Assembly (NCBI RefSeq): GCF_000620785.1
Contig: NZ_JIAI01000007.1
Coordinates: 186,001-250,000 of the forward strand
Direction: 5' to 3'
Length of the DNA stretch: 64,000 bases
DNA from: Actinospineispora acaciae DSM 45401
GTDB lineage: Bacteria > Actinomycetota > Actinomycetes > Mycobacteriales > Pseudonocardiaceae
Shown: in pieces, positions 2,580-15,400 of the stretch
Position numbering within the stretch: the stretch's first letter is position 1
Layout of the letters: every line of letters starts with the position of its first letter
Position numbers and translations under genes: made by a program
The notes under the pieces: model-generated
Told to the model about the DNA's origin: nothing
Databases searched by the model: none
What the model saw: the letters and a program-made list of their open reading frames with translations, nothing else

Positions 2580-3005
2580 TTACTCACCCACCCGCAGCTC
2601 ACGCAGCGGCCGACCGCCGTCGACGAACACCCGCCCACCGGGCGCCAACGCCGCCGCGATCCGTCTCAACGCCGCCCGCCCGGCCTCCGGATGACGCCCG
2701 TCCAACGCCCCGACCCGGATCGCGAACACGAGATCGAACGGCCCCTCCCCCGGTTCCGGCGTGAACGACTCCGCCGCGACCCGCCGAACGCTCATCCGCC
2801 CCGACGTGATCTCCTCCGCACACGCCGCCCGCGCCTGCGCAACCGCCGCGGCCGACCGGTCGACGGCGAGGATGTGCCCGGACGTCAGCCGGGCCGCCAC
2901 CGCCCGTGCGGCGGCCCCCGGCCCGCACCCGATCTCCAGCACGCGCGCCCCCGGCGTCAGCGGCAGGGCGTCCACGATCTCCCGCAGCCGCGGCGACAGC
3001 GTCAC
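2580..3005 (-). CDS. Small class I SAM-dependent methyltransferase
   Basis: A 141-aa protein starting at a GTG that overlaps the stop of the upstream GNAT gene (GTGA, 3002-3005). Motif I (ARVLEIGCGPGAAARAVA) is complete, as is the acidic post-I position (ILAVDRS), and a FDLVFAIRVGALDGRHP segment corresponds to motif II. The protein is short for the family and lacks an obvious C-terminal substrate-binding region. Being the last gene of the putative aromatic catabolic operon, it may have a housekeeping or detoxifying role; the substrate cannot be read from sequence. Confidence 0.8.
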   Translation of the reverse strand: MTLSPRLREIVDALPLTPGARVLEIGCGPGAAARAVAARLTSGHILAVDRSAAAVAQARAACAEEITSGRMSVRRVAAESFTPEPGEGPFDLVFAIRVGALDGRHPEAGRAALRRIAAALAPGGRVFVDGGRPLRELRVGE

Positions 3006-3520
3006 CGCACGGCACCGGCCGCACGCACCATGGCCAGCCTCGGCCACCTGTCCAGCCCGGCCCCGCGCTCCATCTCCCGGATCGCCCGCAGCCCCGGCCC
3101 CAGCTCGCCCTCGGCCAGCTCGACGAACCCCAGCCTGCGGTAGTACGGCGCGTTCCACGGCACCTCGAGGTACGTGGTCAGGCTCAGCTCGGCGGTGCCG
3201 GCCGCGAGCGCCTCACCGCCGGCGTGCTCGATCAGCTCCCGCCCGAGCCCGCGCCTGGCCGCGTCCGGATGCACCGAGACCTGCGCGATGTGCAGCCGTT
3301 CGTCCACCGGATGCGCCAGCAGGAAGCCGAGGGCCGGCCCACCGTCCGTGATCACCCACGCCCGCCCGGCGCGCTGGTAGTGCGACAGGTCCGCCAGCGA
3401 CGTCGGGTCCTCGTCGGCGATCATCGCCATGCCGATGTCCCGGAACGGCTCGCCGGAGGCCTGTTCCAGGGCCCGCAGCCCGGGCAGCTCGTCCTGCCGC
3501 GCCACCCTGATCGTGCTCAA
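3002..3520 (-). CDS. GNAT-family N-acetyltransferase
   Basis: A 172-aa acyl-CoA-dependent N-acetyltransferase. Motif A (QVSVHPDAARRGLGREL) and the terminal YYRRLGFVEL segment are clear. I place the start at a TTG (3520), read as M-S-T-I-R-V, because it overlaps the TGA of the preceding gene as TTGA and has a GAGG-like ribosome site just upstream; a longer version from an ATG at 3550 is possible. It is sixth in the operon that starts with the aryl-CoA ligase. An aminated aromatic intermediate would be a reasonable substrate, but that is inference. Confidence 0.8.
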   Translation of the reverse strand: MSTIRVARQDELPGLRALEQASGEPFRDIGMAMIADEDPTSLADLSHYQRAGRAWVITDGGPALGFLLAHPVDERLHIAQVSVHPDAARRGLGRELIEHAGGEALAAGTAELSLTTYLEVPWNAPYYRRLGFVELAEGELGPGLRAIREMERGAGLDRWPRLAMVRAAGAVR

Positions 3521-5160
3521 TGTCCTCGGAACGCCTCCGCCAGCCACCACGACCCGCCATCATCGGCGATCTTCGCGTCGATCACCAGCGGTTTGTCCCT
3601 CGGACCGTCCAGCCAGCCGGTGACCGCGTCCAGGTCCTCGACGGTACGGACGGTCACCCCTTCGCAGCCGAAGCCCCGTCCGACCGAGGCCAGGTCGGTG
3701 TCGGCGAACCGCACGATGTCCTGGTCCTCGCCCACGAAGTGGTGCACCTCGGCGCCGTACCCGGCGTCGTTGTACACGACCACCACCAGGGGAAGGCCGA
3801 GCCGGACGACGGTGTCCAGCTCGACCAGGCTCATCTGGAAGCCACCGTCGCCGACCGCGGCGACCGGCAGCCGGTCGGGGCGCGCCAGGGCCGCGCCGAC
3901 GGCGGTGGCCAGGCCCAGCCCGATGGACTGGAACGACTGCGTGAAGCAGAACCCGAACTCGTCGGGCACCGACAGGTACGCGCTCGGGTAGCCCATGAAG
4001 TTGCCCGAGTCCACCGCCACCACCCGCTCGGCGGGCAGCAGCTCGTCCAGCCGTTTCGACAGCGTGCGCGGGTCGATCGCGTTCGCGGTGGAGATGTCGT
4101 CGTGCTTGACGTCGTTCCAGCGCCGCTGCTCGGCGATCCGGGTCCGCAGCTCCTCCGTGCGACAGCCCGCGCGGGCGGCCCCGAGCGCGGAACGGACGTC
4201 CGCCGCGGTCAGGCCCACGTCGCCGACCACGCCGAGGTCGACGGGACGGTTCGCGCCGAGCGCTGCCTGTTCGACGTCCACCTGTGCGACCTTGGCGTCC
4301 GCGCCGATCAGGGCGCCGTGCCGCATGGTCCACATGTTCAGCGCGCAGCCCCAGCCGACGACCAGGTCGGCGGCGGTGATGAGCTCGGCGGCCAGCGGCG
4401 AGGCGAACCCGCCGGAGATGCCCAGCGACCACGGGTCGTCGTGGAACAGCCCGTGCGCCACCGCCGAGGTTGCCAGCAGCGCCCCGGACGCCTCGGCCAG
4501 CTCCCGCAGCGGCCCGGCCGCCGCGCGCGCCCCCCGCCCGGCCACGAACACCGGCCGGCGCGCGTCCGCGATCATCGCGGCCAGCGCGTCCACCGCCCCG
4601 GGATCGGCCCGCACCGCCGCCGGCGCCCCCACCGCCGCCACCGACGCAGCGCCCTCCGGAACGGGAAGGTCCTGCACGTCCAGCGGCAGGTTCAACACCA
4701 CCGTGCGCCGCTGCTGCACGGCCGTGCGGTACGCGCGCACCGTGTCCGCGACCGCGCTGCGCGCCGAGTGCACCCGCTCCGGCACCGCGCCCACCGCCCG
4801 CACCAGGTTGTCCTGGTCGATCCGGAAGTTGGACAGCACCGCCGCGCCCGCCGTGTCCGCGGTGAGCACCAGCAGCGGCGTCCGGCTCTTCGCCGCCTCG
4901 CCGATGCCGGTCATGGCGTTGGTCAGCCCGCAGCCCTGGTGCAGCGACACCACCGCGACCTCGCCGCTCATCCGGGCGTAGGCGTCGGCCATGGTGGCCG
5001 CCCCCGCCTCGTGCCGGGTGGCGATGTACCGCGCCCCGGCCGCCCGCAACGCGTTCGTCACCCGGAAGTTGCCACTGCCCACCACCCCGAACACCGGCCC
5101 CACCCCGAGCCGCCCGAGCGTCCCCCCGACCGCCTCGGCCACCGTCACTGTCGATGTCAT
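3517..5160 (-). CDS. ThDP-dependent decarboxylase of the acetolactate synthase / benzoylformate decarboxylase superfamily
   Basis: 547 aa with the three-domain layout of the family: N-terminal PYR domain (1-170), central domain (185-320) and C-terminal PP domain with GDGGFQM...YND for Mg-ThDP. Glu51 (RHEAG) is the conserved residue that activates the cofactor. Compared from memory with benzoylformate decarboxylase, Ser29 (VVGSGN), Glu51, His74 (SLHQGCG) and His281 (MRHGAL) fall where that enzyme has its catalytic Ser, Glu and two His. This favours a 2-oxo-acid decarboxylase over a true acetolactate synthase. The gene overlaps the cyclase upstream by ATGA (5157-5160). If the cyclase makes isatinate (2-aminobenzoylformate), this enzyme would give 2-aminobenzaldehyde. 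That reaction is inferred. Confidence 0.75.
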   Translation of the reverse strand: MTSTVTVAEAVGGTLGRLGVGPVFGVVGSGNFRVTNALRAAGARYIATRHEAGAATMADAYARMSGEVAVVSLHQGCGLTNAMTGIGEAAKSRTPLLVLTADTAGAAVLSNFRIDQDNLVRAVGAVPERVHSARSAVADTVRAYRTAVQQRRTVVLNLPLDVQDLPVPEGAASVAAVGAPAAVRADPGAVDALAAMIADARRPVFVAGRGARAAAGPLRELAEASGALLATSAVAHGLFHDDPWSLGISGGFASPLAAELITAADLVVGWGCALNMWTMRHGALIGADAKVAQVDVEQAALGANRPVDLGVVGDVGLTAADVRSALGAARAGCRTEELRTRIAEQRRWNDVKHDDISTANAIDPRTLSKRLDELLPAERVVAVDSGNFMGYPSAYLSVPDEFGFCFTQSFQSIGLGLATAVGAALARPDRLPVAAVGDGGFQMSLVELDTVVRLGLPLVVVVYNDAGYGAEVHHFVGEDQDIVRFADTDLASVGRGFGCEGVTVRTVEDLDAVTGWLDGPRDKPLVIDAKIADDGGSWWLAEAFRGH

Positions 5161-5933
5161 GAACGCTCCACCAGCGCATACACCCGCGCCGGGCTGCCCG
5201 AGCCGCCCACGATCGGCAGCGGCGACACCACCAGCATCGCCCCGGTGGCCGGCAGCCGGTCCAGGTTGCGCAGCTGGGTCAGCCCGCACTTGCCCGCACC
5301 CAGGATCAGCTCGTGACACGGGAACGCCGGGTCCAGCTCCATCGCCCGGCCCGCGTCGGTACCCACCGTCTCCACCCCGAACCCGGCGATCGGCGACTCC
5401 TCGGCCAGCCACTTCGCGCACTCCGCCGCCACCCCCGGCGTGTGCGACCCCGCGTCGTCCACGTTCAGAAAGCTCTCGGAGTCGTTCGACCGCACGTCCC
5501 ACCCCGTCCGGTAGAGCAACCAGCCGCCGTCGGGCAGCGCGCCGTGCTCGGCCTCCCACTTGCGCACGTCCTCGATCTGGAGCAGGAAGTCCGGGTCGGC
5601 GGCCACCCGGTCCGAGACGTCCAGCACCACGGCCGGCGCGACCAGCGTGCGCAGCGGGATCTGGGACACGTCGTTGCCGTCCTTGCCGGACAGCCAGTGG
5701 TTCGGCGCGTCCACGTGGGTGCCGGTGTGCTCGCCGGTGTGGATGTTGTTCCAGTACCAGCGCGGGCCGCGCTCGTCGTAGCGGCTGATCTCCTCGAGCT
5801 GGAAGTTGATCGTGTTGGCGAACGGCTCCGGCAGCCGCAGCACCGGCGTGGAGTCGCGCAGCGGCGCCGTCAGGTCGACGACCTCGATGCGGTTGGCGCT
5901 CAATGCGGACTGCAGCTCGGACAACACGGACAT
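5157..5933 (-). CDS. Cyclase-family metal-dependent amidohydrolase (isatin hydrolase / kynurenine formamidase type)
   Basis: 258 aa of the cyclase family (Pfam PF04199), which includes kynurenine formamidase and isatin hydrolase. The metal-binding signature is present as HTGTHVDAPNH, with His69, His73, Asp75 and His79. The start ATG at 5933 has AAGGAG seven bases upstream; an in-frame ATG at 5948 lacks that spacing. The gene begins 1 bp after the upstream stop and overlaps the ThDP enzyme gene by ATGA. Both known activities feed anthranilate: isatin to isatinate, or N-formylkynurenine to kynurenine. Pairing with a benzoylformate-decarboxylase-like enzyme and no kynureninase favours isatin hydrolysis. 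Confidence 0.75.
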   Translation of the reverse strand: MSVLSELQSALSANRIEVVDLTAPLRDSTPVLRLPEPFANTINFQLEEISRYDERGPRWYWNNIHTGEHTGTHVDAPNHWLSGKDGNDVSQIPLRTLVAPAVVLDVSDRVAADPDFLLQIEDVRKWEAEHGALPDGGWLLYRTGWDVRSNDSESFLNVDDAGSHTPGVAAECAKWLAEESPIAGFGVETVGTDAGRAMELDPAFPCHELILGAGKCGLTQLRNLDRLPATGAMLVVSPLPIVGGSGSPARVYALVERS

Positions 5934-5934
5934 G

Positions 5935-7050
5935 TCAGGCTCCTTCAAGGGACTGGCGGGGGATGCGGATGCCTCTGGCTTCCAACCGGGGAATGACCTC
6001 GGCGGCGAAGTGCTCCAGCTCGCCGACGTAGTCCACGAACGACAATGTCATGCCGGCCAGCCCGGCCTTGGCGTAGCGCTCGATCTCGTCGGCGACGTCG
6101 TCCGGGCTGCCGATCAGCGGGCAGGTGCCGTGCCCGGCGGCGAACCGGGACCGGAAGGTGGCCAGCATCTCCTTGGTGAACGACTGCGCGTGCATGCCCT
6201 GCAGCCGCATCAGGTTGTCCACCGCGTCCCAGTCGGCGTTCTCCTCGGCGTAGTAGCGCAGGTACTCCTCGGCCTCCGCGCGGGTGGCCCGGCAGACCAC
6301 GTGCGCCGGCGACATCACGCCCACCGACCGCTCGTACACGTTGCGGGCCGTCTCGGTGAGCTGCGTGACCACCTTCGCGCCCTCGTCGGCGTCGCCGATG
6401 ATGGTGAACACGAAGTTGGCGTTGCGGGCGGCGAAGTCCCGGCCCTGCGGGCTGGAGCCGGCGTTGAGCACCGGCAGCGCGCCGTGCACCGGCTTGGGCA
6501 TCGACTCCACGCCCCGCAGCGAGAAGAACCGCCCGTCCAGGTCGTACCGTCCCTCCCTGGTCCACAGCGTGCGGACGTGGTCGAACCACTCCTGCGCCAG
6601 CGCGTACCTGTCGTCGTGGCTGGACGGCAGCTCGACGCCCATCGCCTCGTACTCCGGCTGGTTCCAGCCCGCGACGATGTTCACCCCGGCCCGCCCGTCC
6701 GCCACCTGGTCGATGGTGGCGAGCTGTTTCGCACTGACCACCGGGTGGTTGAACGCGGTGTGCACGGTGGCGAACACGACCACGCGGCGGGTGCTGGCCA
6801 GCAGCGCGGCGGCCCACGGGATCGGCTCCAGCACGCCCTCGTGGAAGTTGGTCTCGCCGCCGTAGCCGATCCACCGGGCGATCGGCAGGATGAAGTCGAT
6901 CCCGACCTCGTCGGCCAGCCGGCCCAGCGCCAGGTTGTCCGCCCAGCTCGCGCTCCACCGCTCCGGGACCCTGGTCACCGCCAGCCCGCCGGAGCAGTTC
7001 GGCGAGAACAGCCCGAGCTTGAAGTCCCTGCCGTCGGTCAGTGTGTTCAC
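5935..7050 (-). CDS. LLM-class flavin-dependent monooxygenase (RutA/SfnG-like)
   Basis: 371 aa, single-domain luciferase-like TIM barrel. It has the N-terminal LGLFSPN strand, an IDFILPIARWIGYGG substrate loop and NIVAGWNQPEY, the hallmark of the alkanesulfonate/dimethylsulfone/RutA group of FMNH2- or NADH/FMN-dependent oxygenases. The GTG start at 7050 has AGGAGG upstream and overlaps the previous stop (GTGA). RutA itself opens a heterocyclic ring at an amide carbon, so a role in oxidising an N-heterocycle before the isatin step is attractive but not shown. Confidence 0.8.
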   Translation of the reverse strand: MNTLTDGRDFKLGLFSPNCSGGLAVTRVPERWSASWADNLALGRLADEVGIDFILPIARWIGYGGETNFHEGVLEPIPWAAALLASTRRVVVFATVHTAFNHPVVSAKQLATIDQVADGRAGVNIVAGWNQPEYEAMGVELPSSHDDRYALAQEWFDHVRTLWTREGRYDLDGRFFSLRGVESMPKPVHGALPVLNAGSSPQGRDFAARNANFVFTIIGDADEGAKVVTQLTETARNVYERSVGVMSPAHVVCRATRAEAEEYLRYYAEENADWDAVDNLMRLQGMHAQSFTKEMLATFRSRFAAGHGTCPLIGSPDDVADEIERYAKAGLAGMTLSFVDYVGELEHFAAEVIPRLEARGIRIPRQSLEGA

Positions 7051-8630
7051 CGGCGCCTCCTGGAGCTTCGGGTCAGGGTGGCGGCGACGATGTGGCCGGA
7101 CCCGCCGCCGAGCCCGGCGCCGGGGTGGGTGGACGCGCCGATGTGCCACAGCCCGGGCACCGCCGTCCGGTGCGACGCCGCCGCCGGGAACGGCCGCCAC
7201 CACAGGTTCTGGTCCAGCTCGGACGAGCCGCCGTACGGGTCGCCGCCGACCGCGTTCGGGTTCGCCGCCGCCAGGTCCGCCGGGGTGATGACGTCCACCG
7301 CCCGCACCTTGGCCAGCAGGTCGGGCGCGTGCTCGGCGACCCTGGCCAGCACCCGGTCCGCGTACGCCCGCCCGACCGACGCGGACCACTGCCCTCCGGT
7401 CGCGATCTCGCCGCCCGCGTCCCCGACCGGCCGGGACGGCACCTCCTGCAGCTGCAGCCACAGCGCGGCCGCGCCGTCCGGCACCCGGGACGGGTCGAGC
7501 ACGAACTGCTGGCCCACCGCCACCGTCGGGCGGGACGGCAGCAGCCCGGCCTCGGCCTGCGCGCACGCGATGCCGGTGCTGCCCGAGCCGTCCGAGACGT
7601 GGATCAGCGGCACCTGTGACAGCTGAGGCTCGCGCCAGGCCGGCGGCCCGGACAGCGCCACGTGCACCTGCATCGCGCCCCGGCCGTAGCGGTACCGCCC
7701 GGCCGCCTCGACCACGCGGGCCGGAACGCCGCCCCCGAGCAACCGCCCGTACAGCGCCGTCGGGGTCACCGAGGCGATCACCGCCCGTTCGGCGCGCAGC
7801 TCGCGCCCCGAGGCCAGCCGGACGCCGACCGCCCGGCCACCCTCGACCAGGATCTCGGTGACCGTCGAGTACGGCTCCACCTGCACCTTCAGCTCGTCCA
7901 GCAGCGCCGCGAAGGCCGCCACGAACCGGCCCGCCCCGCCGGCCACCACCGGCAGGCCGAACCCGTGCATGGTGGCCGCCAGCACCGGCAGCATGAACCC
8001 GCCGCCCGCCTGGTCCGGCGCCAGCCCGGCGTGCAGCAGCCACGGCGCCCAGAGCTGGTCGAACTCCCAGCCGTCGAACTCCCGCCGCCCGTACCCCCGC
8101 CCGCTGGTGGCCAGGTCGACCAGCATCCGCTCCGCGCCGCGCGCCCGCACCTTCCGCAGCAGCCCCAGCGCGGCCCTCATACCGCGCGGCGAGCGCGGCT
8201 CGGTGCCCATCAGCGCCCCGACCTGCCCGGCGGTACGGCCGAACGCGTCGAGCATGGCCAGGTACCGCGACCGGTCCCGCTCGTGCGCGAACCCGGCGAC
8301 TGTCGCGGCCGGGTCGCGGTGCGCGATCACGCACCGGCCGTCGTCGGCGACGCTGGCGGTGACCATGCCGTCGGTGTTGCGGTACTCCAGCCCGTGCCGG
8401 TGCAGGTCCGGGCCGAGCGCGGCGTAGGCCGGCCCGGAGGTGAACAGCGGGTGCCAGGACGAGAACGTGTCGTGCAGGTACCCCGGCAGGGTGCGCTCCT
8501 CGGTGGCGATGAACCCGCCGAGCCGGTCGCCGCCCTCCACCAGCGCGACCGACCACCCCGCCTTCGCCAGCTCCGCCGATGCGACGAGCCCGTTGATGCC
8601 CGCGCCTATCACCACCGCATCGACGGTCAT
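7047..8630 (-). CDS. FAD-dependent oxidoreductase of the phytoene desaturase-like family
   Basis: 527 aa with an N-terminal dinucleotide-binding motif (VVIGAGINGLVASAELAKAG), a GGDRLGG FAD motif and a C-terminal FAD signature (GLWHIGASTHPGAGLGGGSG). This is the layout of carotenoid desaturase/amine-oxidase-like flavoproteins (COG1233). It is the second gene of the operon, 10 bp after the ligase's frame begins downstream, and overlaps the monooxygenase gene by GTGA (7047-7050). No phytoene synthase or other carotenoid gene is nearby, so carotenoid work is unlikely; oxidation of a small cyclic substrate in the catabolic route is more plausible. Substrate unknown. Confidence 0.8.
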   Translation of the reverse strand: MTVDAVVIGAGINGLVASAELAKAGWSVALVEGGDRLGGFIATEERTLPGYLHDTFSSWHPLFTSGPAYAALGPDLHRHGLEYRNTDGMVTASVADDGRCVIAHRDPAATVAGFAHERDRSRYLAMLDAFGRTAGQVGALMGTEPRSPRGMRAALGLLRKVRARGAERMLVDLATSGRGYGRREFDGWEFDQLWAPWLLHAGLAPDQAGGGFMLPVLAATMHGFGLPVVAGGAGRFVAAFAALLDELKVQVEPYSTVTEILVEGGRAVGVRLASGRELRAERAVIASVTPTALYGRLLGGGVPARVVEAAGRYRYGRGAMQVHVALSGPPAWREPQLSQVPLIHVSDGSGSTGIACAQAEAGLLPSRPTVAVGQQFVLDPSRVPDGAAALWLQLQEVPSRPVGDAGGEIATGGQWSASVGRAYADRVLARVAEHAPDLLAKVRAVDVITPADLAAANPNAVGGDPYGGSSELDQNLWWRPFPAAASHRTAVPGLWHIGASTHPGAGLGGGSGHIVAATLTRSSRRRR

Positions 8631-8640
8631 CCGCTACCTC

Positions 8641-10278
8641 TCAGGCCACTGGCGGGTGCGTGACGGCCCTCGGCCGCCGCCGGAGCACGTAGCGCATCAC
8701 CTTGCCATTACTCGTCCTCGGCAGCGCGTCAATGAACTCGATCTCTCGCGGATATTTGTACGGCGCGATCGCCTGCTTGCAGAACGACTGCAGCTCGGCG
8801 GCCTTCGCCGGGTCGGGGCTCGCGGCGTCGGCCAGCACCACGAACGCCTTGACGATCATGCCGCGCTCCTCGTCGGGGGCGCCGACGACCGCCGCCTCGG
8901 CCACGTCCGGGTGCCCCAGCAGCGCCTCCTCCACCTCGGGGCCGGCGATGTTGTAGCCGGAGGAGATGATCATGTCGTCGCTGCGGGCCTGGTACCAGAA
9001 GTAGCCGTCGGCGTCCCGCACGTAGGTGTCGCCGGTGATGTTCCAGCCGCCGTCGACGTAGACCAGCTGGCGCTCGTCGTCCAGGTACCGGCAGCCGGTC
9101 GGCCCCCTGACGGCGAGCCGGCCGGGGGTGCCGTCCGGCAGCTCGTTGCCGTCGTGGTCCAGGATCGCGGCCCGGTAGCCGGGGACGGCGATGCCGGTCG
9201 AGCCCGGGCGGATGTCCCCGTCGGCGGCGGAGATGAACACGTGCAGCATCTCGGTGCCGCCGATGCCGTCGATGATCCGCACGCCGGTCTGGCGCCGGAA
9301 GTCCTCCCACACCGCCTTCGGCAGGTGCTCGCCGGCGGACACGCACCGGCGCAGCCCGGTCAGCTCCTTCGCCTTGCCCGCGGCCAGCATCGCCTTGTAC
9401 GCCGTCGGCGCGGTGGACAGCACGGTCACCCCGTGCTCGGCGATCGCGTCGGCCAGCTCGGTCGGGCTCGCGCGCTCCAGCAGCAGGGTGGACGCCCCGC
9501 ACCGCAGCGGGAACACCACCAGCCCGCCGAGCCCGAAGGTGAACCCGATCGGCGGGGTGCCGGTGAAGACGTCGTCGGCGTTGCCCTTGACCACGTACTT
9601 GCCGAACGTGTCCGCGATGGCCAGCACGTCGCGGTGGAAGTGCATCGTGATCTTCGGCGTGCCCGTCGTGCCGGACGTGGGGGCGAGCATCGCCACGTCG
9701 TCGGCGGCGGTGGCCACCGCGTCGAACTCACCGTCCTTGCCCGCGCACAGGTTGACCAGGTCGTCCGGGTCCGACCCGCCGTAGAGCACGGTGGCCATCG
9801 TGGTGCGCTCGACGGCGTCCAGCTCCTCGGCGAACCGCTCGTCGCAGATGGCGAGCACCGGGTCGGTCGCCTCGGCGATCACGGCGATCTCGTTGCGGCG
9901 CAGCAGCGGCATCGTGGTGACCACCACCCCGCCCGCCTTGAGCACCCCGAACCAGGCGGCCACCAGCCACGGGTTGTTCGGCCCGCGCAGCAGCACCCGG
10001 TTGCCCGCCACCAGCCCGAAGTCCTCGGTGAGCACCCGCGCCACCCGGTTCGACGCCCGCGACAGCTCGCGGTAGGTCCAGGTCTCGCCGGGCGCGCGCA
10101 GGCACGGGCGGTCGGGCCCGTGTACGCCCATCGTGTCCTCGAGCAGCGCGACGGCGCAGTTGACCGTCGTCGGGTAGCGCAGCTCGGGGAGGTCGAAGCT
10201 GATCTCGGGCCACTGCCCGGACGGCGGGAGGCGATCCCGGCAGAACGTGTCCAGATGCACCGAGGGGGACAGCTGCAT
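8641..10278 (-). CDS. Aryl-CoA ligase (benzoate / 2-aminobenzoate-CoA ligase type)
   Basis: 545-aa ANL-superfamily acid:CoA ligase, forming an acyl-AMP and then the CoA thioester. The P-loop-like motif is TSGTTGTPK, the GYNIAGPEVEEAL segment is the A8 hinge region, and the catalytic lysine lies in RTSNGKVMR. The closest known architecture is benzoate/anthranilate:CoA ligase. It starts at ATG 10278. A longer frame reaches a TTG at 10362, but that stretch carries a promoter (TTGACT, 16 bp, GATACT) and reads poorly as protein. It leads the operon extending to 2580. With the monooxygenase-reductase fusion next door, anthranilate is the likeliest substrate, salicylate or benzoate the alternatives. 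Confidence 0.85.
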   Translation of the reverse strand: MQLSPSVHLDTFCRDRLPPSGQWPEISFDLPELRYPTTVNCAVALLEDTMGVHGPDRPCLRAPGETWTYRELSRASNRVARVLTEDFGLVAGNRVLLRGPNNPWLVAAWFGVLKAGGVVVTTMPLLRRNEIAVIAEATDPVLAICDERFAEELDAVERTTMATVLYGGSDPDDLVNLCAGKDGEFDAVATAADDVAMLAPTSGTTGTPKITMHFHRDVLAIADTFGKYVVKGNADDVFTGTPPIGFTFGLGGLVVFPLRCGASTLLLERASPTELADAIAEHGVTVLSTAPTAYKAMLAAGKAKELTGLRRCVSAGEHLPKAVWEDFRRQTGVRIIDGIGGTEMLHVFISAADGDIRPGSTGIAVPGYRAAILDHDGNELPDGTPGRLAVRGPTGCRYLDDERQLVYVDGGWNITGDTYVRDADGYFWYQARSDDMIISSGYNIAGPEVEEALLGHPDVAEAAVVGAPDEERGMIVKAFVVLADAASPDPAKAAELQSFCKQAIAPYKYPREIEFIDALPRTSNGKVMRYVLRRRPRAVTHPPVA

Positions 10279-10334
10279 CACCAGCACCTGCCTGTGGTCG
10301 ACGTGGGGTGCCGCCGGCGCGGCGGAGCCGACCC

Positions 10335-10362
10335 AGTATCCCTCATTCGTGACGACAGTCAA
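10335..10362 (-). promoter_or_regulatory. Probable promoter of the ligase-to-methyltransferase operon
   Basis: On the minus strand TTGACT (10362-10357) is followed by a 16-bp spacer and GATACT (10340-10335). This is close to the sigma-70-type consensus in otherwise GC-rich DNA. It would give a leader of about 50 nt before the ATG at 10278. Confidence 0.5.
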
Positions 10363-10369
10363 CAGATCG

Positions 10370-10912
10370 CTATATGGGCCTCGTGGGACCGAGGGCCAGT
10401 TCGTAGCGGCTGAGCCTGATCAGGCGGGCGTCGCGGGCGGGGAACTCGACGTCGCCGCGGTAGCTGAACCCGATTCGTTCGTAGTAGGCGCGCAGCCGGT
10501 GGTTGGTGGTGACGCAGTCCAGCCGCAGGAACTCGCGGGCATGGCGGAGGGACTGCTCGCCGGCCCAGGCGAGCAGGCGCGCGCCGAGGCCTCGGGCGTC
10601 GCGGCGGCCGGCGAGCCGGTGCACGTAGCCGGCGCGGCCGTCGGCCGTCCAGAGGGGGTCGGTCCAGGTCAGCGTGAGGGTGCCGAGCGGTTCGTCGCCG
10701 CGCTCGGCCAGCCAGGTGTGGCCGGCGGCGATGCCGGGGAGCACCTTGTGCGGTTCGAAGCGTTCGGGCCACTGAAGGATCTGGCGCTCGTGCAACCACC
10801 GGGCCGCGTCGTTGAGGACGGCGAGAACCTTGTCGACGTCGTGTTCGTCCGCGCGGCGGAAATGGAGTTCGTCCCCCGGAACGGTCACGTCGTCGATGTT
10901 AGGTGTGATCAC
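10370..10912 (-). CDS. GNAT-family N-acetyltransferase
   Basis: 180 aa starting at GTG 10912 (or GTG 10888, which a TAACAT box seven bases upstream would make a leaderless start). The fold is recognisable from HFRRADEHDVDKVL, the motif A region GYVHRLAGRRDARGLGARLLAWAG, and a C-terminal NHRLRAYYERIGFSYRG. It resembles single-domain GNATs annotated as tRNA or small-molecule acetyltransferases; substrate unknown. It lies between the two minus-strand catabolic units, 6 bp after the end of the monooxygenase-reductase gene, so it may be co-transcribed with it. Confidence 0.8.
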   Translation of the reverse strand: MITPNIDDVTVPGDELHFRRADEHDVDKVLAVLNDAARWLHERQILQWPERFEPHKVLPGIAAGHTWLAERGDEPLGTLTLTWTDPLWTADGRAGYVHRLAGRRDARGLGARLLAWAGEQSLRHAREFLRLDCVTTNHRLRAYYERIGFSYRGDVEFPARDARLIRLSRYELALGPTRPI

Positions 10913-10918
10913 GCGGTG

Positions 10919-13270
10919 TCACGGGCGCCAGCGGGCGTGGGCGGTGCCGTGGTCGCGCGAGCGGATCAGTTCGAGCCGGGGGCGGGGTTCCTCGGCGCGG
11001 CCGGCCTGGGGCTTGCGGCTGCCGGCGGCGAACTGCTTGGGCCAGGTCACGCCGGGGCCGGTGTAGCCCTGGTCGGCGGCGGCGTGCAGCGTCCACTGCG
11101 GGTCGTAGAGGTGGGTGCGGCCGACGGCGCACAGGTCGGCGCGGCCGGCCAGGACTATCGAGTTGAGGTCGTCGTAGGACGAGATCGCGCCGACGGCGAT
11201 CACCGCGACGCCGTACTTGCGGCCGACCTCGTTGCGGATCCGGTCGGCGTACGGGGTTTGGTAACTGCGGCCGTACGCCGGGCGCTCCTCGGAGACCACC
11301 TGGCCGGTGGAGACGTCGACGCCGGCCGCACCGTGCTCGGCGAACGCCCGCGCCACCTCCACCGCCTCGTCCGCGTCCAGGCCGCCGGGGTACCAGTCGG
11401 TGGCCGAGATCCGCACGGTCATGGGGCGCTCGGACGGCCACGCCTCGCGGACCGCGTCGAAGACCTCCAGCGGGAACCGCAGCCGGTTGGCCAGCGAGCC
11501 ACCGTAGGAGTCGGTGCGGCGGTTGGTCAGCGGGGAGATGAACGAGGACAGCAGGTAGCCGTGCGCGCAGTGCAGTTCGAGGACGTCGAAGCCGGCGCGG
11601 GCGGCGGCGCGCGCGGACTCCACGAACTGCGCCTTGATCTCAGCCAGCTCGGTGACGCTCAGCTCGCGCGGGGTCTGGTTCTCCGGGGCGTACGGCAGCG
11701 GCGACGGGGCGACGACCTCCCAGTTGCCGGCCGGCAGCGGCTGGTCGATGCCCTCCCACATGAGCTTCGTCGAGCCCTTGCGCCCGGAGTGGCCGAGCTG
11801 GATGCCGATCTTCGCGGCGCTGTGCTCGTGCACGAAGTCGACCACCCGCCGCCAGGCCGCCTCCTGCTCGGGGGTGTCGATGCAGGCGCAGCCGGGCGTG
11901 ATGCGCCCGGACAGGGAGACGCAGACCATCTCGGTCATCACCAGGCCGGCGCCGCCGAGCGCCTTGCCGCCCAGGTGCACCAGGTGGAAGTCGGTGGGCA
12001 CGCCCTCGCGCGCGGAGTACATGTCCATCGCGGACACCACCACCCGGTTCGGCAGCTCCAGCTCACCCAGCCGGAACGGGTGGAACATCGGCGGGGTCGG
12101 CTGTTCGGCACCGCCGGAGAACCACGAGTCGGTGGCCGCGACGAACTCCGGGTCGCGCAGCCGCAGGTTGTCGTAGGTGACCCGGCGGCTGCGGGTGAGC
12201 AGGTTGAACGCGAACTGCTCGGGCTCCTGGTGCACGTAGTGGCCGATGTTCTCGAACCACTCCAGGCTGGCCTGCGCCGCCCGCTGGGTGGACGCCACCA
12301 CCGGCCGCCGCTCGGCCTCGTACTCCTCCAGCGCGGTCGGCACGTCCGGATGCTCGTGCAGGCACGCGGCCAGCGCCAGCGCGTCCTCCATCGCCAGCTT
12401 CGTGCCCGAGCCGATGGAGAAGTGCGCGGTGTGCGCCGCGTCCCCGAGCAGCACCACGTTGCCATGCCGCCAGCGCTCGCACCGCACCGTGCCGAAGCTC
12501 AGCCACTTCGAGTTGTTCGCCATCACCCGGTAGCCGTCCAGGACCTCGGGAAACAGCTCCTTGATCATCTCGATGGACCGCTCGTCGCTGGCCCCCGGCG
12601 GCAGCTCCTTCGTGGTGAACCCCGCGCGGCGCCACACGTCCTCGTGCAGCTCCACGATGAAGGTGCTCTCGGTGCGGCTGTACGGGTAGCCGTGGATCTG
12701 CATGATCCCGTGCGGGGTCTGCGCGATGTGGAAGGTGAACGCGTCGAACACCCGGTCGGTGGACAGCCAGATGTACTTGCAGCGGCGGGTCTCCACGCTC
12801 GCGCCCAGCTCGTCCGCATACCGCGCCCGGGTCGGCGAGTTCGCCCCGTCCGCGGCCACCACCAGGTCGTACTCGCGCGAGAGCGTCGCCGCGTCGGGCG
12901 CCTCGGTGCTCACGTGCACCCCGGCGCCGACCCGCCCGCACCGCGCCCGCAGGATGTCCAGCAGCCGCACCCGGCTCAGCGCCGCGAAACCGTGCCCGCC
13001 GGAGGTGAACGTGGTCCCGGCGAAGTGCACGTCGATGTCGTCCCAGCGGGCGAACTCGCGGCGCATCGCGCGGTACACCTCGACGTCCGCGTGCTCGATG
13101 CCGCCGAGCGTCTCGTCGGAGAACACCACGCCGAAGCCGAACGTGTCCCCCGCCGCGTTGCGCTCCCACACGGTCACGTCGTGTCGCGCCCCGTCAATAG
13201 CCCCGAGCTGCTTGACCAACGCCGCGAAGTACAACCCCGCCGGCCCGCCCCCGATGACAGCAATCCGCAT
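10919..13270 (-). CDS. Bifunctional aryl-CoA monooxygenase/reductase (2-aminobenzoyl-CoA monooxygenase/reductase or salicylyl-CoA 5-hydroxylase type)
   Basis: 783-aa two-domain flavoprotein. Residues 1-385 form a class A flavin hydroxylase: IAVIGGGPAGLYFA at the N-terminus and GDAAHTAHFSIGSGTKLAMEDA around 290. Residues about 400-760 form an Old Yellow Enzyme barrel starting FHPFRLGELELPNRVV, with LHCAHGYLLSSFISPLTN. This fusion is the hallmark of 2-aminobenzoyl-CoA monooxygenase/reductase (aerobic anthranilate breakdown) and of salicylyl-CoA 5-hydroxylase homologues. The first domain hydroxylates and the second reduces the dearomatised ring. ATG 13270 is preceded by GGGGAGG. It is transcribed from the divergent promoter shared with the SDR-RidA pair. 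A nearby aryl-CoA ligase and RidA favour the aminobenzoyl-CoA role. Confidence 0.9.
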   Translation of the reverse strand: MRIAVIGGGPAGLYFAALVKQLGAIDGARHDVTVWERNAAGDTFGFGVVFSDETLGGIEHADVEVYRAMRREFARWDDIDVHFAGTTFTSGGHGFAALSRVRLLDILRARCGRVGAGVHVSTEAPDAATLSREYDLVVAADGANSPTRARYADELGASVETRRCKYIWLSTDRVFDAFTFHIAQTPHGIMQIHGYPYSRTESTFIVELHEDVWRRAGFTTKELPPGASDERSIEMIKELFPEVLDGYRVMANNSKWLSFGTVRCERWRHGNVVLLGDAAHTAHFSIGSGTKLAMEDALALAACLHEHPDVPTALEEYEAERRPVVASTQRAAQASLEWFENIGHYVHQEPEQFAFNLLTRSRRVTYDNLRLRDPEFVAATDSWFSGGAEQPTPPMFHPFRLGELELPNRVVVSAMDMYSAREGVPTDFHLVHLGGKALGGAGLVMTEMVCVSLSGRITPGCACIDTPEQEAAWRRVVDFVHEHSAAKIGIQLGHSGRKGSTKLMWEGIDQPLPAGNWEVVAPSPLPYAPENQTPRELSVTELAEIKAQFVESARAAARAGFDVLELHCAHGYLLSSFISPLTNRRTDSYGGSLANRLRFPLEVFDAVREAWPSERPMTVRISATDWYPGGLDADEAVEVARAFAEHGAAGVDVSTGQVVSEERPAYGRSYQTPYADRIRNEVGRKYGVAVIAVGAISSYDDLNSIVLAGRADLCAVGRTHLYDPQWTLHAAADQGYTGPGVTWPKQFAAGSRKPQAGRAEEPRPRLELIRSRDHGTAHARWRP

Positions 13271-13296
13271 GTCGACAGCACCTCCCCGCCACGCCG

Positions 13297-13339
13297 AGGA
13301 TATGTTGTGTTTGCTACGACCGTCAAGAATCCGTAAGAT
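13297..13339. promoter_or_regulatory. Overlapping divergent promoters for the monooxygenase-reductase (minus) and SDR-RidA (plus)
   Basis: Minus strand: TTGACG (13326-13321), 18 bp, TATCCT (13302-13297). Plus strand: TTGCTA (13311-13316), exactly 17 bp, TAAGAT (13334-13339). The -35 of one lies in the spacer of the other, so the two cannot be occupied freely at once. The plus -10 ends 7 bases before the SDR GTG at 13347, predicting a leaderless transcript. Confidence 0.6.
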
Positions 13340-13346
13340 CGCCGGG

Positions 13347-14108
13347 GTGGCGCCAACATCCCGGACCTGTCTGGTCACCGGCGCCGGGCGTGGCATCGGC
13401 AGGGCGATCGCCGTCCGGTTGTCCTCGGCCGGACACCGCGTCGCCGTGACCGCCCGCACCGAGACCGACCTGGCCGCCACGGCGGCCGAGCTGCCGGGGG
13501 CGACGCTCGTCGTCCCCGCCGACGTCACCGCACCCGCCGCCGAGGACGCCGTCTTCGAGCGGGTCGAGCGCGAGTGGGGGCCGGTCGAGGTGCTGGTGCT
13601 CGCCGCCGGGGTCGGTACGTCCGCGCCGGTCGCCAGGACCACGGACGAGCAGTGGCGCGACGCGATCGAGGTGAACCTGACCGCGCCGTTCCGGTTCCTG
13701 CGCCGGGCGGTGCCCGCGATGGTCGAGCGCGGCTGGGGGCGGGTCGTGGTGGTGGCCTCGATGGCGGCCAAGCGCGGCGACCCGTACGTCTGCGCGTACA
13801 CCGCGAGCAAGCACGGCGTGCTCGGCCTGGTCCGGTCGGCCGCTGCGGAGCTGGCCACCACCGGCGTGACCGTCAACGCGGTCTGCCCCGGCTACGTCGA
13901 CACGCCGATGACCGCCGCGACCATCGCCACCATCACCGCCAGCACCGGCCGCTCGGAGTCCGAAGCGCGTTCGGCGCTCGAACGCCGCCAGCCGATCCGC
14001 CGGCTCATCACGCCCGGCGAGGTCGCGGACGCCGTGGAGCTCTGCCTGGCCAGCGCGGCGGTGACCGGCCAGGGCATCAACGTCGACGGAGGGGCAGTCC
14101 AGTCATGA
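13347..14108 (+). CDS. Short-chain dehydrogenase/reductase
   Basis: 253-aa classical SDR with the Rossmann signature VTGAGRGIG at residues 10-18, a central LAAG motif (LVLAAGVG), catalytic Ser in VVVASMAA and the YTASK catalytic Tyr-Lys pair, and a C-terminal GQGINVDGG. The GTG at 13347 is chosen because the glycine motif then starts at the usual distance; a -10 box 7 bases upstream predicts a leaderless mRNA. It is coupled to the ridA-like gene by ATGA. A 3-oxo or 3-hydroxyacyl-CoA intermediate of the aromatic pathway is a reasonable substrate. Confidence 0.88.
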   Translation: MAPTSRTCLVTGAGRGIGRAIAVRLSSAGHRVAVTARTETDLAATAAELPGATLVVPADVTAPAAEDAVFERVEREWGPVEVLVLAAGVGTSAPVARTTDEQWRDAIEVNLTAPFRFLRRAVPAMVERGWGRVVVVASMAAKRGDPYVCAYTASKHGVLGLVRSAAAELATTGVTVNAVCPGYVDTPMTAATIATITASTGRSESEARSALERRQPIRRLITPGEVADAVELCLASAAVTGQGINVDGGAVQS

Positions 14109-14518
14109 CGCTCGAACGGATCAACCCGGCCGCGCTGGCCCGGCCGTCCGGCTTCTCGCACGCGATCACCGCGACCGGCCCCGGCCGGGTCATATTCCTC
14201 GCCGGCCAGACCGCCCTGGACCGGGACGGGAAGATCATCACCGGCGGCATAGTCGAACAGTTCGAACGCGCCCTGTCCAACCTGCTCACCGCTCTCACCG
14301 AGGCCGGCGGCCGCCCCTCCGACCTGGCCCAGCTCACCGTCTACATCGTCGACATGGACGACTACCGCCGCCACGCCCGCGAGATCGGCGCCGTGTGGCG
14401 CACCCTGGTCGGCACCGACTACCCCGCCATGGCCGGCATCGGCGTGGCCCGCCTCTGGGACGCCGAGGCCCTGGTCGAAGTCCAAGGAATCGCCTGGTCA
14501 GAACCCGTGAGTGGTTAG
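14105..14518 (+). CDS. RidA (YjgF/UK114) family enamine/imine deaminase
   Basis: 137-aa RidA-fold protein with FLAGQTALDRDGKIITGG, VYIVDMDDY and GVARLWDAEALVEVQGIA; Arg116 and Glu125 are the residues that bind the carboxylate and water in the family. RidA proteins hydrolyse enamines/imines to ketones and ammonia. The reduced product of 2-aminobenzoyl-CoA monooxygenase/reductase is itself a cyclic enamine, so release of ammonium from it is an attractive role (inference). ATG overlaps the SDR stop. The last codons (PVSG) and the TAG stop are supplied by the 46-bp palindrome. Confidence 0.88.
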   Translation: MTLERINPAALARPSGFSHAITATGPGRVIFLAGQTALDRDGKIITGGIVEQFERALSNLLTALTEAGGRPSDLAQLTVYIVDMDDYRRHAREIGAVWRTLVGTDYPAMAGIGVARLWDAEALVEVQGIAWSEPVSG

Positions 14519-14549
14519 CGTTGCTATGACAACGCTAACCACTCACGGG
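14504..14549. terminator. 46-bp perfect palindrome, copy 2 (between convergent genes)
   Basis: Perfect 20-nt arms around the loop CTATGA. The arms differ from copy 1 at several inner positions, but each change is matched on the other arm (for example GGTTAG with CTAACC), so pairing is conserved. The ridA-like gene ends at its TAG (14516-14518) and the paaX-like gene ends at its TGA (14545-14543), both inside the stem. Stops occur in all six frames. Confidence 0.88.
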
Positions 14550-15400
14550 CGGTGACCTGCGGAAACGTAAGCGTGGGCGCGGGCTTCGAGGCGGGTCTTG
14601 AGCGAGAAGAACAGGTCGGCGGCGCGGGCGCCGGCCCAGTCGGGCGGAAGTAGTTCGGCGGGCAGGCCGGGGTCGCAGTAGGGCAGCCGGCGCCAGTCGG
14701 TGAGGACGCGGACGTAGTCGACGAAGGCGTCACGTTCGTCCGGGCGTTCGTCCGGCCTGGTCCATCTGGTCAGCTTGGCGCGGTGTTCGCCCAGGAACTC
14801 CTCGTAGAGCCGGTGCAGCTCGTCGAGGTCCCACCAACGGGCGATCTTGTCGGTGAGGTCGCCGAACGCGAGGTGCTCGGCGTGGAACACCTCGGCGTAG
14901 GCGTCCAGGTCGTAGCGGCGCAGCATGCTGGTGGTGGCCGCGCGCAGGTGCGCGGGCGCCACCCAGACCCCGGGCGCGGCGGTGCCGAAGCCGAGCGCGG
15001 TGAGCTGGGTGCGCAGCACGTGCCGGCGGTGCCGCTCGGACTCCGGCACCGAGAACACCGCGAGCACCCAGCCGTCGCCGAGCGTCGCGCGCTCCCGCCG
15101 GAAGATCCGCTCGTCGCCCTCGCGCAGGATCTCCACCGCCTCGGCGGACAGCTCGTAGCCGGCCGCGCCGCCCTCCTTGCGCGCCTGGAGTATGCCGCGC
15201 CGCTTGATCCGGGAGATGGACGAGCGGACGGCGGGCTCGTCCACCCCGAGCTCGGCCAGCAGGCTGACCAGGGAGGCCACCGACAGCCAGCCGCCGCTCT
15301 CCCGAGAGTACAGCCCGTACACGGTCACGATCAGCTGGCGCGGCTGGGTGCTGCGCCGGGCGGTGTCCGCCTCGTCACCACTGACCGTTTCGGTCGTCAC
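14543..15400 (-). CDS. PaaX-family transcriptional repressor
   Basis: 285 aa with the N-terminal winged-helix region RQLIVTVYGLYSRESGGWLSVASLVSLLAELGVDEPAVRSSISRIKRRG, then the PaaX central region (WVLAVFSVPESERHRRHVLRTQLTALGFG) and C-terminal domain. PaaX-type regulators are released by aryl-CoA thioesters, usually phenylacetyl-CoA. Lying beside an aryl-CoA ligase and monooxygenase, this one probably senses 2-aminobenzoyl-CoA or a related thioester. GTG start at 15400, with a TATCGT box 6 bases upstream suggesting a leaderless message. Stop codon inside the 46-bp palindrome. Confidence 0.88.
   Translation of the reverse strand: MTTETVSGDEADTARRSTQPRQLIVTVYGLYSRESGGWLSVASLVSLLAELGVDEPAVRSSISRIKRRGILQARKEGGAAGYELSAEAVEILREGDERIFRRERATLGDGWVLAVFSVPESERHRRHVLRTQLTALGFGTAAPGVWVAPAHLRAATTSMLRRYDLDAYAEVFHAEHLAFGDLTDKIARWWDLDELHRLYEEFLGEHRAKLTRWTRPDERPDERDAFVDYVRVLTDWRRLPYCDPGLPAELLPPDWAGARAADLFFSLKTRLEARAHAYVSAGHRP

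Follow-up and report, generated by a model that had tools for sequence, protein, structure and literature searches.

Organization of the Locus

The window analysed here is a 64,000-nucleotide stretch of the Actinospineispora acaciae DSM 45401 genome. The genes of interest form a minus-strand run encoding a ThDP enzyme, an isatin-hydrolase-type cyclase (IH), a luciferase-like monooxygenase (LLM), a CrtO-like FAD oxidoreductase (FADox), an aryl-CoA ligase and a monooxygenase-reductase fusion (ACMR), with SDR, RidA and PaaX genes adjoining, Table 1. A preliminary description of this DNA had proposed most of this arrangement, and Pfam and NCBIfam matches together with the reading frames establish that the PF04199 cyclase, ThDP enzyme, ligase, ACMR, PaaX, SDR and RidA genes all exist in the implied order and on the implied strands. 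The coupling that it reported is equally evident, with overlaps of the IH and ThDP genes in ATGA, of FADox and LLM in GTGA and of ThDP and GNAT1 in TTGA, and a spacing of 1 bp between LLM and IH. Its starting point, position 2580, lies inside a methyltransferase-like ORF that is followed by GNAT1. The latter was rejected as a pathway gene because it accompanies DUF4129 and MoxR genes in two stretches of Pseudonocardia DNA without any ligase or ACMR match; it is part of the conserved chromosomal flank.

Table 1. Features of the locus, with positions in the window
Feature	Position	Strand	Basis
ThDP enzyme, candidate isatinate (2-aminobenzoylformate) decarboxylase	3517..5160	-	TPP_enzyme_N/M/C, all three domains
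Isatin-hydrolase-type cyclase (IH)	5157..5933	-	PF04199; HTGTHVDAPNH
FMN-type luciferase-like monooxygenase (LLM), SfnG/RutA group	5935..7050	-	PDB and NCBIfam matches; GTG start
CrtO-like FAD oxidoreductase (FADox), candidate isatin-forming dehydrogenase	7047..8630	-	Pfam/NCBIfam
Anthranilate-CoA ligase (predicted)	8641..10278	-	PF00501/PF13193; best PDB match 4wv3, anthranilate-CoA ligase; ATG start
Promoter-like site 5' of ligase	10335..10362	-	Consensus match only
GNAT acetyltransferase (GNAT2) between ACMR and ligase	10370..10912	-	No relative in loci searched
Anthraniloyl/salicylyl-CoA monooxygenase-reductase fusion (ACMR)	10919..13270	-	FAD_binding_3 and OYE domain in one chain
Promoter-like site 5' of ACMR	13297..13326	-	Consensus match only
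SDR dehydrogenase of anthraniloyl-CoA module	13347..14108	+	Frame reading, NCBIfam subfamily match; GTG start
RidA-type enamine/imine deaminase	14105..14518	+	Frame reading; NCBIfam Rid family, below cut-off
20-bp hairpin, convergent ends of RidA/PaaX	14504..14549		-39.7 kcal/mol, z -7.8
PaaX-type regulator	14543..15400	-	PaaX, PaaX_M, PaaX_C above Pfam cut-offs; start from reading frame

The two promoter-like sites, which are consensus matches only, were found in 14.1 kb, compared with a mean of 0.3 in shuffled sequence, and a simple inverted-repeat scan 5' of ACMR yielded a single 8-base imperfect pair. The RidA/PaaX hairpin is likely a two-way terminator.

Assignment of the Gene Products

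The top four PDB matches of IH are isatin hydrolases, at 240-275 bits. The protein carries the metal motif HxG[T/A]HxDxPxH given in the available part of PMC6117287 as well as the aromatic motif WXW/FXW, in the form of WYW at residues 59-61, the latter being lost (WKH) in part of the orthologues. Residues named in the same source are kept except for Y204F, Q219T and C220Q, and in place of the GLQC/GLAS motif of isatin hydrolases the window protein has GLTQ, with GLQC/GLAS absent from all 75 IH rows compared. Assignment as a kynurenine formamidase was rejected (31.7 bits against a cut-off of 223, with KynB PDB matches only at E ~1e-4). Homology strongly suggests that IH opens isatin to isatinate.

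The ThDP enzyme had been credited with the Ser/Glu/His/His set of benzoylformate decarboxylase (BFD), which we take to be Ser26, Glu47, His70 and His281. Of 8 BFD rows 6 were used (L149 and L152 left out). The first three residues align with S28, E50 and H73, while the column of His281 is occupied by M278; the nearest His, H280, is at least 90% conserved among orthologues and not invariant, and a His pair at 472/473 is invariant across 33 of them. With the fourth His unaligned and only 143.5 bits against the BFD profile PRK07092 (cut-off 493), filing the enzyme as a BFD was rejected. Comparison of folds, based on a structure model with pLDDT 88, makes no choice among decarboxylase, oxidase, lyase and synthase. 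The best structural matches include pyruvate oxidases, and non-oxidising ThDP enzymes give equal fold scores; BFD is not among the 50 fold matches listed, an absence that carries no weight. The closest PDB chains are BbmA/CsmA, for which nothing relevant was found in the open-access literature searched, and in four annotated records examined the family is labelled 'thiamine pyrophosphate-binding protein' only. The enzyme is a good candidate for the step from isatinate to anthranilate.

Assignments of the ligase and ACMR draw on the pAL1 plasmid of Arthrobacter Rue61a. The pAL1 ligase, for which anthraniloyl-CoA formation was demonstrated by assay (PMC3534580, in the part available), shares 60.7% identity with that of the window. 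With 4wv3 as its best PDB match the window ligase lies nearest to assayed members, and homology strongly suggests that it produces anthraniloyl-CoA. ACMR scores 1202 bits against NF006101 (cut-off 1078), as a fusion of two flavoproteins; its gene neighbourhood and an identity of 65.3% with the pAL1 counterpart suggest anthraniloyl-CoA, rather than salicylyl-CoA, as its substrate. The SDR gene stays beside RidA in two relatives (L127, L128). What had been described as a flavin monooxygenase is indeed of the flavin (FMN) type and is more exactly an SfnG/RutA-like LLM, below the cut-offs of both SfnG (TIGR04021, 190 bits versus 383) and RutA (TIGR03612, 156 versus 498). Likewise, the FAD oxidoreductase is more exactly a CrtO-like protein (NCBIfam), with 159 bits against the CrtO beta-carotene ketolase model NF045689 (cut-off 1000).

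Distribution among Relatives

ThDP orthologues of 62-75% identity, with IH adjoining, were collected in 80 loci, IH lying at most 400 bp from the ThDP gene in 75 of these, a set that is not independent as some loci duplicate others (L044 and L128 are one contig). Loci in which IH or the ThDP gene adjoins the ACMR module occur in Actinomycetota, Deinococcota and Alphaproteobacteria. The ThDP family is common in Actinomycetota and present on two Deinococcus plasmids, and in Deinococcus psychrotolerans the same set is rebuilt as one directional run that includes ThDP and RidA and contains no aldehyde dehydrogenase (ALDH) gene. IH, ThDP and ligase genes are neighbours in L127. The preliminary description knew of no actinomycete locus with this exact set, which is not unique: the L044/L128 contig, from a Pseudonocardiaceae metagenome genome, carries the full window set except for both GNAT genes, together with ACAD and ECH.

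Within the window's family (200 genomes) an orthologue of the ThDP enzyme occurs in 61, the ACMR fusion in 63 and both in 33 (Fisher p 8e-6). The counts include ThDP rows with 60% identity or more (61 of 66 genomes) and ACMR rows that score 1038 bits or higher (63 of 80). The two genes are at most 20 kb apart in 7 of the 33, where random placement in 8 Mb, with relatedness ignored, would give 0.17; these seven are the genome of the window and three pairs from the same genus each, and they represent four genera. Against a functional connection, ThDP and ACMR genes are more than 20 kb apart or unlinked in the other 26, and 65 of the 80 loci have no ACMR within the stretch examined.

On Tsukamurella and Alloyangia plasmids no ThDP orthologue was found, and an indolepyruvate-oxidoreductase (IOR) pair is present in its place, as expected if the product of IH is a 2-oxo acid; co-occurrence of ThDP and IOR in L129 counts against such a replacement. 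The Alloyangia IH has the canonical GLAS signature and is accompanied by the ACMR module, FADox and IOR, and the Azospirillum IH has the canonical GLQC, with an indole monooxygenase, SDR and FADox. FADox was found in 12 of the 80 loci, namely all 11 with an indole-monooxygenase-type gene and L044. By itself it is no marker, because relatives of 41-50% identity in L166 and L168-L171 have other gene neighbourhoods. Arthrobacter-type relatives carry StyA-type oxygenases, one a reductase fusion, plus SDR. LLM (5 loci) and StyA-type oxygenase (11 loci) never occur together among the 80 loci, numbers that are too small to mean much.

Proposed Pathway and Alternatives

We consider this locus likely to be a catabolic operon channelling an indole-type compound via isatin into the aerobic anthraniloyl-CoA pathway. 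Isatin would be formed by an oxygenase (in this locus perhaps LLM) together with FADox, and IH would produce isatinate from it. Gene pairing and replacement point to decarboxylation of isatinate by the ThDP enzyme, probably to 2-aminobenzaldehyde that would then be oxidised by an unlinked enzyme (or LLM), or else to anthranilate directly. The ligase would convert anthranilate to anthraniloyl-CoA, as strongly suggested by homology to the assayed enzyme, and homology further suggests that ACMR hydroxylates and reduces the ring and that SDR and RidA act on its product, with PaaX probably the repressor of the system. This agrees with the central claim of the preliminary description, that hydrolase, ThDP enzyme, ligase and ACMR lead from isatin to 2-aminobenzoyl-CoA, and is supported by the pAL1 ligase identity, the Deinococcus run, the IOR replacement and the nearby indole-monooxygenase-type genes.

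The description had also noted that the window lacks an ALDH, and this held in a tblastn search with one query at E 1e-8. Neither a thiolase query nor the FAH, cupin and TesB genes of pAL1 gave a match in the window. Evidence against the proposed operon function includes the lack of any match within the window to a StyA-/FMO-type oxygenase or flavin reductase, and the failure to find a PRK08258-type ECH in the organism's own genome at E 1e-60. That genome has one StyA-like protein (35%), away from the locus, and the closest acyl-CoA dehydrogenase found in it is a partial match at 43%.

In a variant of this pathway the ThDP enzyme would oxidise isatinate directly to anthranilate, with O2 or the neighbouring FADox as acceptor, so that neither free aldehyde nor ALDH is needed. 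The rarity of ALDH-like stretches (just 3 of the 80 loci, at a weak 25-34% identity), the ALDH-free Deinococcus run and the pyruvate oxidases among the structural matches all favour such a reaction, to which we give a small but real chance; the equal fold scores of non-oxidising enzymes, the absence of FADox from most loci with the IH-ThDP pair, the ALDH gene of the R. erythropolis R138 locus and the detection of C7H7NO, which is the formula that 2-aminobenzaldehyde has, upon overexpression of iadC-K2 in Variovorax (PMC12633357, in the part available) argue the other way. It is improbable, in our view, that IH and ThDP are a separate module for some other cyclic amide or lactone and its 2-oxo acid, merely adjoining an ordinary anthranilate-CoA module. 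Such a separation could account for the missing GLQC/GLAS signature in all 75 rows, for pairs without ACMR in the stretch examined, such as that of Pseudonocardia spinosispora (L043) in the same chromosomal place, for the 45 of 61 family genomes with ThDP in which ACMR is absent or on a different contig, and for the promoter-like site between ACMR-GNAT2 and the ligase-to-ThDP genes. Yet the ligase shares a run with IH-ThDP in the window, L127 and Deinococcus, the ACMR link is scattered over the tree with at least 12 changes forced by its starred branches, and sister loci with the canonical signature carry the same partners. Finally, the NCBIfam name of the fusion, salicylyl-CoA 5-hydroxylase, would fit an oxygen analogue that leads from a benzofuran-type lactone through 2-hydroxybenzoylformate to salicylyl-CoA, with ACMR a true salicylyl-CoA 5-hydroxylase. 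We regard this as very improbable, as ligase and ACMR are closest to the anthranilate pair whose ligase was assayed (in a comparison set without characterised SdgC), RidA-like genes accompany the module in 16 of the 80 loci and indole-monooxygenase-type genes are near 11.

Beyond the isatin operon itself, we place at about even a broader proposal, in which this ThDP family decarboxylates isatinate and thereby completes the isatin route of aerobic indole catabolism. Alternative flavin oxygenases, of the StyA or FMO type or, in this locus, LLM, would feed isatin, in most cases together with a CrtO-like dehydrogenase, and carbon would reach anthraniloyl-CoA through the ThDP enzyme or an IOR-type isatinate:CoA oxidoreductase, a role that would also explain iadA/iadB of auxin degraders. 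In auxin loci running via isatin these are IorA/IorB homologues (PMC9613470, in the part available). An iadC-K2 fragment restored anthranilate in Variovorax (PMC12633357, likewise); because its name leaves out iadA/iadB, IOR need not be essential there, which counts against the pathway proposed for the locus.

The locus and its relatives give two candidates for isatinate turnover, the ThDP enzyme and the IOR pair, and connect IH with the anthraniloyl-CoA module in three phyla. The excerpts of PMC6221969 list isatin as a true intermediate of bacterial indole breakdown among open questions and call for functional identification of the isatin hydrolase gene, and no gene assignment for isatinate to anthranilate was found in the portions of open-access literature searched. 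If correct, the proposal would close a gap in the turnover of indole and auxin and provide an annotation rule for the ThDP family.

Comparison with Known Systems

With benzoylformate decarboxylase the window ThDP enzyme shares the fold and the aligned Ser, Glu and one active-site His, whereas the PRK07092 score, fourth His and invariant 472/473 pair set it apart. IndA1/IndA2B of Rhodococcus opacus 1CP and the iif/ipo pathway (PMC6165268, PMC13101518, PMC12538310) have counterpart StyA-type oxygenases in the Arthrobacter-type relatives and none in the window; in the excerpts of these sources, the iif pathway reaches anthranilate via IifB/IifA, with no isatin.

The iad auxin loci of Variovorax and Bradyrhizobium (PMC9613470, PMC12633357) also proceed from isatin through isatinate to anthranilate, but they use a Rieske oxygenase, ligase and thiolase to take off the acetate side chain, and the parts of these papers available describe no ThDP orthologue of the window type. 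IadI, annotated as a kynurenine formamidase, is taken to be the counterpart of IH. Formulas of isatinate and 2-aminobenzaldehyde were detected in such degraders, and the available part of PMC12633357 gives isatinate to anthranilate no gene.

Ligase, ACMR, RidA and PaaX are common to the window and the aerobic anthraniloyl-CoA (2-aminobenzoyl-CoA) pathway of Arthrobacter pAL1 (PMC3534580, where Azoarcus evansii is also named). The pAL1 plasmid has FAH, cupin and TesB genes that gave no match in the window, whereas the window adds IH, ThDP, FADox and LLM. The isatin hydrolases of Labrenzia aggregata and Ralstonia solanacearum (PDB 4j0n, 5nna, 5nnb, 5nmp; PMC6117287, in the part available) are the best full-length PDB matches of the window IH, which keeps their metal motif, WXW, H79, H207 and D193 and has T-Q at 219-220 rather than Q-C or A-S; it is paired with a ThDP gene, whereas the Labrenzia enzyme belongs to an iad-like auxin locus.

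Gene organization and enzyme assignments

The table lists the features of the locus in the window, which has a G+C content of 73%. The genes for the isatin-hydrolase-type cyclase (IH) and the ThDP enzyme, our candidate isatinate decarboxylase, overlap by ATGA, those for the CrtO-like FAD oxidoreductase (FADox) and the luciferase-like monooxygenase (LLM) by GTGA, and 1 bp separates LLM from IH. Minus-strand matches to the promoter consensus are found directly ahead of the anthraniloyl/salicylyl-CoA monooxygenase-reductase fusion (ACMR) and ahead of the predicted anthranilate-CoA ligase (two sites vs a mean of 0.3 in shuffles), suggesting two units, ACMR-GNAT2 and ligase-FADox-LLM-IH-ThDP-GNAT1. 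The hairpin is likely a two-way terminator.

Features of the candidate isatin degradation locus, in window coordinates
Feature	Coordinates	Strand	Remarks
ACMR, GNAT2, ligase, FADox, LLM, IH, ThDP, GNAT1	13270 to 3002	minus	in this order
SDR, RidA, PaaX		SDR (+), RidA (+), PaaX (-)	past ACMR, on its far side
Perfect 20-bp hairpin	14504-14549		spans the 3' ends of the convergent genes RidA and PaaX
Second luciferase-like gene (PF00296)	15521-16351		between PaaX and NMO
Nitronate-monooxygenase-like (NMO) gene	16470-17522		

The best matches of IH among solved structures are isatin hydrolases (four sequences, 240-275 bits), the next best scoring 123 bits. Counted along the alignment with LaIHA, W59, W61, H69, H73, D75, H79, W80, D193 and H207 are retained, while Y204 is replaced by F and Q219-C220 by T-Q; because of these kept residues and the T-Q pair at 219-220, IH has an intact catalytic set yet lacks the published GLQC/GLAS signature. 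The roles of the isatin hydrolase residues are described in PMC6117287, according to which LaIHB carries Ala at position 219, so that this position can do without a metal ligand.

The top solved match of the ligase is an anthranilate-CoA ligase, and its identity to the ligase of pAL1, the Arthrobacter Rue61a plasmid with an anthraniloyl-CoA pathway, is 60.7%. Anthraniloyl-CoA is reported to be formed in cell extracts by two Rue61a ligases, one of them pAL1-borne (PMC3534580); from its position before the ACMR gene we take the assayed plasmid ligase, ARUE_113p00220, to be the pAL1 gene compared here. ACMR scores above the SdgC-type fusion cut-off and shares 65.3% identity with its pAL1 counterpart. 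LLM is SfnG/RutA-like, with a flavin-reductase-like gene adjoining it in loci L076, L105 and L108, and FADox is CrtO-like, with a score far under the CrtO family cut-off. FADox relatives (41-50%) also occur in different neighbourhoods in L166 and L168-L171, in four of these with an FAH-like gene and an unidentified protein of 750-823 aa, and the wider CrtO-like family may act on other compounds.

The ThDP enzyme falls in the acetolactate synthase/pyruvate oxidase/lyase superfamily, where a close characterised member was not found. A model built from an alignment of 33 orthologues (mean pLDDT 88.1, pTM 0.90) superimposes in VIA-align on many ThDP families with similar scores (Z 35.9-38.7, 500-535 residues, 2.6-3.3 A), and the fold therefore does not pick an activity. 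In an alignment with six proteins of the benzoylformate decarboxylase (BFD) family S28, E50 and H73 match the Ser/Glu/His columns, and the last active-site His has no aligned counterpart; two histidines conserved in all 33 orthologues, H472 and H473, align near the C-terminal active-site stretch. With the fold undecided and the last His unaligned, the assignment as isatinate decarboxylase rests on gene context.

Conservation of the IH-ThDP pair and probable assembly of the locus

Of 361 ThDP relatives found by scanning genome contigs, the best 80 were used, with stretches of at most 10 kb per side and some shorter, so that counts of neighbours are lower bounds. IH is present in 77 of these best 80 loci, on the same strand within 300 bp of ThDP in 67, on the opposite strand within 400 bp in 8 and about 6 kb off in 2; in the loci without it (L061, L075, L083) ThDP and ACMR are 0.6-2.2 kb apart. 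ACMR and the ligase are each found in at least 15 loci, RidA in at least 16, PaaX in at least 13, FADox in at least 12, LLM in at least 5 and weakly matching ALDH-like stretches in at least 3; ACMR was not seen within the stretches of 65. A StyA-type oxygenase occurs in at least 11 of the 80, every time with FADox. The two of L115 have the styrene monooxygenase substrate domain, and one is fused to a flavin reductase, like the IndA1/IndA2B indole monooxygenases, for which this arrangement is reported (PMC6165268). In L119, on a plasmid of Rhodococcus erythropolis R138, genes for an ABC transporter, a thiolase, a zinc-ribbon protein, a CoA ligase and an ALDH come after IH-ThDP; the group resembles a set for auxin-type side-chain removal, here combined with a ThDP enzyme of the window type.

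A ThDP orthologue is present in 61 of 200 genomes of the window's family and the ACMR fusion in 63; 33 genomes have the two together (Fisher p 8e-6). In 7 of these 33, from four genera, they lie within 20 kb of each other, compared with 0.17 expected at random. L127 (ThDP-IH-ligase, then an ECH gene, ACMR, SDR-RidA and PaaX) has the window's order minus the LLM, FADox and GNAT genes, L128 reads PaaX, RidA, SDR, ACMR, ACAD, ECH, ligase, FADox, LLM, IH, ThDP, and L138 has FADox-LLM-IH-ThDP, the lower module being absent from its 19.5 kb. In a quick tree built from 99 ThDP proteins, 25 rows carry the ACMR label (two at 16-17 kb), and its distribution requires 20 changes, at least 12 of them forced by starred branches, and shuffled labels average 22.5, with 45 of 500 shuffles as low as 20; the linkage is thus scattered rather than a single inheritance.

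On the tree, the ThDP enzyme of the window has its closest rows in Pseudonocardia spinosispora (L043), where an NMO gene is followed by IH-ThDP-GNAT1-DUF4129-MoxR, and P. eucalypti (L039), where LLM sits between NMO and IH. In the window LLM, FADox, ligase, GNAT2, ACMR, SDR, RidA, PaaX and the second LLM all lie between IH and NMO, and the other flank is the same as in these two. This suggests an older core of IH-ThDP here, to which the remaining genes were added. The second LLM has a 67% relative in L043, located elsewhere and not between NMO and IH. In two Pseudonocardia stretches an orthologue of NMO lies next to IH or LLM in divergent orientation; NMO could be a long-standing neighbour of the pair or a partner that has been overlooked.

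Proposed pathway and comparison with known systems

Isatin would be supplied by an upstream oxygenase together with FADox, a StyA- or FMO-type oxygenase having found no match within the window. From homology IH would convert isatin to isatinate, which from context the ThDP enzyme would decarboxylate. Bacterial luciferase oxidises aldehydes to acids and, by analogy, LLM is one candidate for the enzyme that would oxidise the aldehyde, if one is formed. The ligase would then give anthraniloyl-CoA, as judged from homology to an assayed enzyme, and ACMR, SDR and RidA, also by homology, would start ring breakdown. ECH and ACAD genes occur in L128, L132 and Deinococcus; the window holds no counterparts, and searches of the strain's own genome turned up none that was close. 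Pathways of this kind are already known; what looks new is the gene set, together with the assignment of the ThDP enzyme. Our search of the open-access literature found no paper assigning the isatinate to anthranilate step to a gene or describing IH-ThDP pairs, and the prediction, based on gene context, is specific and touches an open question.

The association extends to other phyla. In Deinococcus psychrotolerans the series ACMR-SDR-MarR-ECH-ACAD-ligase-IH-ThDP-RidA all runs the same way, and Deinococcus KNUC1210 has the IH-ThDP pair, ACMR not being in the stretch examined; L165 has SDR-FMO-FADox-IH-ThDP adjoining ligase-ACMR, L167 FADox-RidA-ligase-ACAD-ECH-SDR-ACMR-IH, and Azospirillum thermophilum AraC, SDR, an indole-monooxygenase gene, flavin reductase, FADox (44%) and an IH with GLQC. 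Genes for both subunits of an indolepyruvate-oxidoreductase (IOR alpha/beta) are found on plasmids of Tsukamurella (L125: SDR, FMO-type enzyme, FADox (61%), IOR alpha/beta, IH, nitrilase, ACMR module) and Alloyangia pacifica (L174: ACMR module, IH with GLAS, FADox (40%), IOR alpha/beta), and neither is among the ten records matching ThDP at E 1e-50, a result that applies to the plasmids. IOR enzymes catalyse the CoA-dependent decarboxylation of aryl 2-oxo acids, so the presence of their genes beside IH suggests that IH forms a 2-oxo acid. The IOR alpha/beta of L125 and L174 are a candidate isatinate:CoA oxidoreductase in place of the ThDP enzyme, although L129 holds ThDP and IOR together, which counts against strict exchange.

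It is possible that this role extends to iadA/iadB of the auxin degradation (iad) loci, described as homologues of IorA/IorB in a route from indoleacetate via isatin and isatinate to anthranilate (PMC9613470). Overexpression of the nine-gene fragment iadC-K2 is reported to lead to a build-up of C8H7NO3 and C7H7NO (PMC12633357), which we infer to be isatinate and 2-aminobenzaldehyde, both awaiting IadAB. The same source reports that iadC-K2 restores anthranilate and terms it the complete pathway (PMC12633357), so that IadAB would be of help there but not indispensable.
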